Of a stretch of 40,697 nt of DNA, positions 1 through 40,697 are shown one piece after another. Below the pieces are notes generated by a model, which searched no databases, was not told where the DNA came from, and was given only the letters and a program-made list of their open reading frames with translations. The stretch is taken from assembly GCF_016820635.1 (NCBI RefSeq), contig NZ_WSFU01000130.1, positions 1 to 40,697 on the forward strand. The letters are read 5' to 3'. Each line of letters starts with the position of its first letter. Position 1 is the stretch's first letter. The stretch comes from Anaeromonas gelatinilytica. GTDB taxonomy: Bacteria; Bacillota; Clostridia; Tissierellales; SIT17. The position numbers and the translations under genes were made by a program.

Positions 1-150
1 ACGTGCACCTGAGCACCCTTCTAATACGGCAGGGGATTCCATCCCCTACAACCCCTCTTTTTTTATTGTCTTCCAATATTTTCTCTAACTACTAACCCTT
101 GTATTTATCAATAGTCTAAAACTTTTGTTAAATTAACTTTCCTAGACAAT
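1..150 (+). repeat. 3' part of a ~210-bp dispersed structured repeat (copy A)
   Basis: Bases 1-150 match 21494-21643 almost throughout, ending at the same 'cctagacaat'. The first 16 bases (acgtgcacctgagcac) are also the last 16 bases of the window, so this copy is cut by the window edge. It contains the short hairpin aggggat-tcc-atcccct at about 32-48. It carries no open reading frame and lies just past the 3' end of the ATP-grasp gene. A non-coding multi-copy element is certain from the internal comparison; its class is not known to me. Confidence 0.85.
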
Positions 151-2120: not shown

Positions 2121-2400
2121 AAAATAAAAAAAGTCTATCATCTCTATTAAATATAGAGACGAAAGACTTAACTTTCGCGGTACCACTCCAGTTGGTATAA
2201 AACCCACTTTATCAGTACAGAAATATATATAAATTTCGATACTGCCCAATCTATAACGGTTTGGCTCCGTCTAAGCCTACTCTCTTAAAAAGATTTCAGT
2301 TAGAAATTCAAGGATGTTCTTCATTATAAGTATTATATCGGACTTTCACTATAACCGACTCGCTAATATAAGTTCTTATAATTACTCTTCCCATCATAAT
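2121..2400 (-). promoter_or_regulatory. T-box riboswitch of asnA (Asn specifier AAC)
   Basis: Read on the minus strand, the leader shows the T-box core TGGTACCGCG (plus 2176-2185). It ends in a terminator hairpin (plus 2133-2167) followed by a T-run (2121-2132). Stem I begins near 2396. In its 3' side the context gaagAACatcctt places an AAC codon at plus 2316-2318, followed by a purine, as expected for the specifier. AAC is an Asn codon and the regulated gene is asnA, so the two readings agree. A short reading frame at 2061-2249 on this strand is not a gene. Confidence 0.9.
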
Positions 2401-2473
2401 CTTTTTCAAATATATTAGTTTTTATATTTAAACTAAATTATAATAATAAATACATTATATGTCAAGAATTTTC

Positions 2474-21432: not shown

Positions 21433-21643
21433 AAAAGGCAAACAAGAAGCATGTTCTCTAGGGAAACCTAGTTTCCCTTCGACGATGCATAAAACATGCA
21501 CCTAAGTACCCTTCTAATACAGCAGGGGATTTCATCCCCTACAACCCGTCATTTTTTATTGTATTCCAATATTTTCTATAACTATTAACCTTTGTATCTA
21601 TCAATAATCTAAAAGCTTTATTAAATTAACTTACCTAGACAAT
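21433..21643 (+). repeat. Dispersed structured repeat, complete copy B
   Basis: This is the only full copy in the window. It aligns with 40614-40697 over its first part and with 1-150 over the rest. Three hairpins are shared: gggaaa-cctag-tttccc (which overlaps an alternative ctagg-gaaa-cctag), tgcat-aaaac-atgca, and aggggat-ttc-atcccct. In the other copies the second stem reads tgcat-aaaac-gtgca, a U-A to U-G change that keeps pairing. No reading frame is present. It lies in the gap between the YitT-like gene and proC. Confidence 0.85.
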
Positions 21644-34630: not shown

Positions 34631-34654
34631 GTAGTAAAATTCAATATATAAAGC

Positions 34655-34879
34655 ATAAACATTGAAAGAGATAGTAGCTTTTTTTAAGGACAATAGAGAC
34701 AGATTGGTTGGTGAAAAATCTGCCTTAAATATAAGCGAATTACGACTCTAGAGTTTCAGTAGGAAACTACTGCGATTAGTCATATGATACATGACTTAAT
34801 GAGGCATTTTATTAAATGTGAATTAAGGTGGTAACACGGGTTTTCTCGTCCTTTTGGACTAGAAAACCCTTTTTATTTT
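34655..34879 (+). promoter_or_regulatory. T-box riboswitch of tyrS (Tyr specifier TAC)
   Basis: The leader has the T-box variant core GGTGGTAACACGGG (34827-34840), and a terminator hairpin GGGTTTTCT...AGAAAACCC (34838-34869) with a T-run to 34879. In stem I, gcgaatTACgactc puts a TAC codon at 34741-34743. TAC codes for tyrosine and the gene is tyrS. Uncharged tRNA-Tyr should favour the antiterminator. Confidence 0.88.
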
Positions 34880-40613: not shown

Positions 40614-40697
40614 AAAAAAGGCGGACTAGAAACATGTCCGCTTCGCTAGGGAAACCTAGTTTCCCTTCGACGGTGCATAAAACGTGCACCTGAGCAC
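40614..40697 (+). repeat. 5' part of the dispersed structured repeat (copy C)
   Basis: This copy begins with the hairpin gcggac-tagaaacat-gtccgc and continues with ctagggaaacctagtttccc and ggtgcat-aaaac-gtgcacc. It then runs off the window at 'cacctgagcac', exactly where copy A begins. It matches copy B from 21433 onward, with copy B lacking a few bases near the first hairpin. Confidence 0.85.

Follow-up and report, generated by a model that had tools for sequence, protein, structure and literature searches.

The repeat at positions 21433 to 21643 of the window, the 40,697-nucleotide stretch of Anaeromonas gelatinilytica DNA analyzed here, is very probably a copy of a chromosomal nonautonomous mobile element that is about 175 to 213 bp long across its copies, has no coding capacity, and targets the T-runs of transcription terminators. 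Compensatory changes across the phylum show that the predicted structured RNA of its interior, the RF02937 core, has been maintained. A first-pass annotation of the window had offered a mobile element or a structured RNA family as alternatives. Both hold, the first from empty sites and near-identical copies and the second from covariation and the match to RF02937. That annotation gave neither the strand nor the Rfam match, and it did not recognize that the element targets terminators and duplicates its target. The RNA core is already known from Rfam.

Copies in the window and the home genome

The window is an entire contig (C34 of the home genome, G000). The central copy had been placed accurately by the first-pass annotation, and the two partial copies are cut by the contig ends (Table 1). 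The central copy has its 5' end at 21643 and its 3' end at 21433. It is old and partly decayed, and its left T-run reads TTATTC. The earlier view that it has no coding capacity is borne out, as no open reading frame of at least 100 amino acids overlaps it. The copy at the left end of the contig (L010) lies directly 3' of the terminator of the gene at 166 to 978 (GTCATTTCATAATGAAATGAC-TTTTTT). The window also contains two ordinary T-box leaders (RF00230), at 2152 to 2406 (minus strand) and 34653 to 34856 (plus strand), each scoring 104 bits.

By the first-pass annotation's own standard, a family limited to these copies, with divergence that destroys the stems, would have counted against its reading. 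This is not the case, and BLAST with the whole element gave 39 matches in the home genome. We estimate that these represent about 25 to 30 elements, because many matches are two halves of one copy on separate contigs. Many contig breaks in the home assembly fall inside the element, including both ends of the window contig. RF02937 matched at 21 places in the home genome; 13 of these were above the gathering score, and the best scored 82.9 bits.

Table 1. Features of the element and its copies in the window
Feature	Position	Strand	Basis
Complete element copy	21433..21643	-	BLAST family of 39 matches in genome; boundaries from copy alignment
5' domain, closed by stem ATTGT/ACAAT (H0)	21552..21643	-	H0 covaries across genera
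A-run of 5' domain	21552-21557	-	Faces upstream T-run in other copies
RF02937 Clostridiales-2 RNA core	21472..21556	-	cmscan 65.3 bits; gathering score 58.6
Hairpin H1 (GTAGGGGATGAAATCCCCTGC)	21522..21542	-	Copy alignment; Rfam structure line
Variable stem H2, between motifs GGGTGCTCAG and CGYCGAAGGG	21484..21502	-	20 distinct arm pairs; covariation
Hairpin H3, GGGAAAC-TAG-GTTTCCC	21461..21477	-	GC/AU double changes at two pairs
Alternative hairpin CTAGG-TTTC-CCTAG, overlapping H3	21458-21471	-	Sequence
3' hairpin and T-run, terminator-like, closing the element	21433..21456	-	Architecture common to 3'-complete copies
Second copy, 5' 150 nt (L010)	1..150	-	BLAST matches; copy alignment
Third copy (L027), 3' portion, including its terminator GCGGACATGTTTCTAGTCCGCCTTTTTT	40616..40697	-	BLAST matches; copy alignment

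Anatomy and RNA structure

The RNA strand of the element is the minus strand of the window, because conservation, the Rfam match, the terminator, and the location behind terminators all point there. On this strand, copy alignments give the order of a 5' domain (a variable stem with an A-run after its second arm), H1, GGGTGCTCAG, H2, CGYCGAAGGG, H3, TAGCG, and a final hairpin with its T-run. A single hairpin of about 38 nt makes up the 5' domain in the genus of G199, and in the home genome the domain is about 90 nt long. By inspection, there are no terminal inverted repeats (left, ATTGTCTAGG or ATATACTAGG; right, as the reverse complement, AAAAAGGCGGAC or AAAAAAGTTGC). The element ends differ between genera, and the interior is conserved.

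Some copies have a variant layout. In two copies of the congener G002 (L034 and L042), an additional hairpin domain of about 55 nt (CCCAAATCTCTGATTTGG...) separates H3 from the terminator. Six G199 copies (L155, L156, L157, and L159 to L161) have internal deletions with both ends kept, and another (L150) is cut down to the 5' hairpin and CTCTTTTTA. G179 copies have CGGAGTC or similar in place of CTCAG (L217, L219, L220, and L225) or GGTCGG in place of CGAAGG (L221 and L226). These replacements might represent a second version of the core internal loop.

The covariance-model search that the first-pass annotation had called for placed the core of the central copy above the RF02937 gathering score (Table 1). 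Because automatic alignment handled the core poorly, the helices were scored from fixed anchors. H2 was 80% paired, versus a shuffled mean of 43% (0 of 1,000 shuffles as high), and in a first test H0 was 89% paired, versus 72% when shuffled (0 of 500 as high); these shuffles ignore the relatedness of the copies. A second H0 test takes the best pairing in each copy and is biased upward. The count of pair types is stronger evidence for covariation than the shuffles. At individual positions, H0 and H2 show as many as four Watson-Crick pair types, and 13 extra types occur across five positions of H2. H3 shows compensatory GC-to-AU change, and relatives read GGGGAAC-UAG-GUUCCCC. The window copy on its own folds at a z-score of -2.7. 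The selection on RNA structure that had been suggested from a single U-A to U-G change is thus supported beyond that change. Both of the alternative hairpins described earlier (ctagg-gaaa-cctag and gggaaa-N5-tttccc) are present in the sequence, and the longer one varies by compensatory change. They had been read on the plus strand, whereas the RNA strand is minus. The form of the element and its Rfam class suggest that it is transcribed. The covariation of the stem beside the T-run could partly reflect palindrome correction at the DNA level.

Insertion behind terminators

Copies begin immediately 3' of the T-run that closes a native intrinsic terminator, on the same strand as that T-run. We scored sites by the presence of a preceding hairpin of -6 kcal/mol or better. 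Fifty-one of 68 insertion sites had such a hairpin, compared to 31 of 454 T-runs of at least 6 bases at large (P = 3e-34) and 13 of 81 intergenic T-runs (P = 2e-13); several of the 17 other sites do have terminators that this criterion misses. By eye, the terminators that precede copies include those of 5S rRNA, tRNA, and T-box-type leaders (L093, L158, L028, and L022). In G481, from another lineage of the phylum, most of the near-identical copies are again behind terminators. Exceptions without a terminator, behind plain T-runs, include L066, L071, L083, L044, L011, and L013.

The nonterminator targets of L018, L011, and L013 in the home genome have GTG-TTTTTT in common. The L018 T-run is a few bases 3' of a promoter-like TATAAT and is therefore an initially transcribed T-run. 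In G039, the element terminator at L033 and L039 is followed directly by a second, different noncoding repeat, whose first ~40 nt are those with which the element there begins; a further insertion or recombination at the element's own T-run could have produced this arrangement.

Because the upstream gene's terminator is left intact and the element adds its own, insertion is probably nearly harmless.

Empty sites and target duplication

Comparison of related genomes shows mobility. Relatives that lack the element retain an intact terminator or T-run at the corresponding site. Empty sites were found in the home genus for L004, L018, L023, and L029 (compared to G001 to G003), and L074 of G199 has an empty site in G197, in which the terminator ending in TTTTTT is present and the element is absent. 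Furthermore, G199 copies that are 98 to 99% identical occupy about 15 unrelated places. Vertical inheritance at orthologous places in all relatives is contradicted for L004, L018, and L074.

L004 reads TTTTTTG on the left and TTTTTG-TAATAG on the right, and three congeners read TTTTT(T)GTAATAG. L018 reads TTTTTTA on the left and TTTTTAAAATATTG on the right, with the congeners reading TGTG-T(3-5)-AAAATATTG or close to it. Therefore, the check for target-site duplications proposed in the first-pass annotation has a positive outcome, with TTTTTG at L004 and TTTTTA at L018, the T-run blurring the exact length. In a tally made by eye, a left G was always paired with a right G (4 of 4, versus 4 of 60 for a left A; P = 1e-4). 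An A follows the right T5 in all 16 G199 copies with a complete 3' end. L101, L216, and L023 had no match past T5. At L219, L029, L099, and L224, the target gives an extra G or A and the facing internal arm is altered to match it. This points to palindrome correction or to an arm templated by the target.

Distribution

The search of related genomes that had been proposed found matches in 18 of 249 genomes of the order (including one or two weak, doubtful cases such as G224) and in 22 of 398 genomes sampled across the phylum (several weak). Thus, its range extends beyond the home family to others within the order and to remote branches of the phylum, and many of these genomes have several copies. 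The highest number in the order is about 45 (G179). Elsewhere in the phylum, the credible multicopy genomes include G481, G456, G529, and G358, with the same layout; G481 has 11 copies and G529 has 8 (these genomes are 96 to 99% complete). Distant copies score 26 to 56 bits against RF02937. Presence is patchy, with no match in two of three congeners. No copy was found in virus, phage, or plasmid collections, and seven pattern matches in viral contigs were due to chance. A lone Aquabacterium match in a contig pattern scan, in which the last base of the pattern was wrong, was also taken as chance.

How the element might move

The comparisons show that the element inserts in one orientation into T-runs, with a strong preference for those of intrinsic terminators, and that insertion duplicates about six bases (TTTTTA or TTTTTG). 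An enzyme acting in trans may recognize the RNA, or its structure formed as a hairpin in the DNA, because a DNA-only miniature inverted-repeat transposable element (MITE) should conserve its ends and not its interior. The conserved RNA probably matters for the spread of the element. Our favored mobilizer is a putative DNA recombinase acting in trans, with the RNA probably involved. BLAST with whole elements in G000, G199, G179, G200, G481, G456, and G529 revealed no autonomous partner with the same ends, and the analysis yielded no mobilizing enzyme. Matches to the 5' end alone were considered as autonomous copies but turned out to lie at contig ends or to derive from deletion; nearly all of these also sat behind terminators.

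Ordinary DNA transposition is a real possibility, with somewhat less than an even chance of being correct. A transposase would read the subterminal hairpins, or CTAGG(R)AA near both ends, and cut at T5R, and the interior would be a passenger sRNA with its own function. This fits the target duplication, the hairpin found at each end, the placement of CTAGGAAAG close to the left end and of inverted CTAGGGGAA close to the right, and amplification in genomes without a reverse transcriptase. However, a standard MITE would have terminal inverted repeats, which the element lacks, the target duplication argues against IS200/IS605, and it is the ends that differ between genera while the interior is conserved. 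Our search gave no transposase family either. In the genus of G199, Y1 transposases showed no correlation with the element, as 18 of 25 genomes have one, positives and negatives alike. Copying through RNA, as in a bacterial SINE, is improbable. The 3' U-tail of the RNA would anneal to the A-strand of the target, a reverse transcriptase would extend it, and a staggered second cut would give the TTTTTR duplication. The missing terminal inverted repeats, the short T5R duplication, the orientation fixed by the T-run, the terminator U-tail as 3' end, and the conserved RNA structure would all be accommodated, and the junctions resemble those of target-primed reverse transcription. Despite this resemblance, G481 and G529 have no reverse transcriptase (PF00078), and element-rich G179 has only a chance-level match (E 0.007), which argues against group II-like or SINE-like copying. 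A reverse transcriptase link was rejected for these three genomes; other element-positive genomes do have reverse transcriptases. L085 and L213 lack the 5' hairpin, as SINE-like copying might produce, but deletion of the hairpin could explain them too.

It is also unlikely, though less so than SINE-like copying, that the element represents a widespread class of bacterial mobile element that depends on its own structured RNA without a reverse transcriptase, the RNA directing a host or other enzyme to terminator T-runs, perhaps by pairing of the internal A-run with the T-run. Two observations raised a guide role for the A-run: the R of the duplication can pair with U, and the altered arms in L219, L029, L099, and L224 match their own target base. 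It was set aside, and palindrome correction is the more likely source of these arms, because G481 copies have no A-run. The least probable reading is a family of trans-acting small RNA genes kept for a host function and dispersed by ordinary gene duplication, which we consider very unlikely. Rfam lists RF02937 as an sRNA, and the RNA is strongly conserved. However, the element has a patchy presence, with no match in two of three congeners, 10 to 45 copies occur at unrelated sites that are nearly always behind T-runs, and many copies are internally deleted. This is the pattern of a mobile element.

If our reading of a mobile element is correct, the Rfam "sRNA" RF02937 is the core of an element for which terminators serve, throughout a phylum, as safe places to insert, and RF02937 counts reflect transposition. 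The element also accounts for many breaks in the home assembly. Its many recent natural insertions, with their target duplications and no enzyme in view, make it directly testable what moves the element and whether the RNA is involved.

Comparison with known systems

The 82-nt Rfam model of RF02937 (Clostridiales-2), which exceeds its gathering score in 13 home-genome copies, covers the core only; the 5' domain, the 3' terminator, the mobility, and the terminator target are outside it. Group IIC introns insert behind intrinsic terminators in a fixed orientation, so terminator targeting is common to the intron and the element. However, the element is only ~200 nt, makes a target duplication, and has no linked reverse transcriptase, and no group II Rfam family (ribozyme core, domain V) matched it. 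Like PATE and other IS200/IS605 derivatives, it has a hairpin close to each end, lacks terminal inverted repeats, and inserts at a short target in a fixed orientation. Unlike IS200/IS605, which does not duplicate its target, the element does. It resembles MITEs in being short and noncoding and in having a target duplication, but not in terminal inverted repeats.

Among small bacterial repeats, bcr1 of the Bacillus cereus group is flanked by TTTAT. The element's terminator T-run target is unlike those described for bcr1, BOX, RUP, SPRITE, and Efa-1. These repeats (BOX, RUP, and SPRITE being from pneumococcus and Efa-1 from Enterococcus) are, like the element, short, noncoding, structured, and dispersed (PMC2267715, PMC3049150). 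In PMC3049150 and PMC2267715, which cover small bacterial repeats, we found no such element with a terminator target. RUP and BOX make target duplications, but they have terminal inverted repeats, which the element lacks (PMC2267715, PMC3049150). Their descriptions also set all of these repeats apart in distribution, as they are confined to narrow groups, whereas the element is phylum-wide (PMC2267715, PMC3049150).
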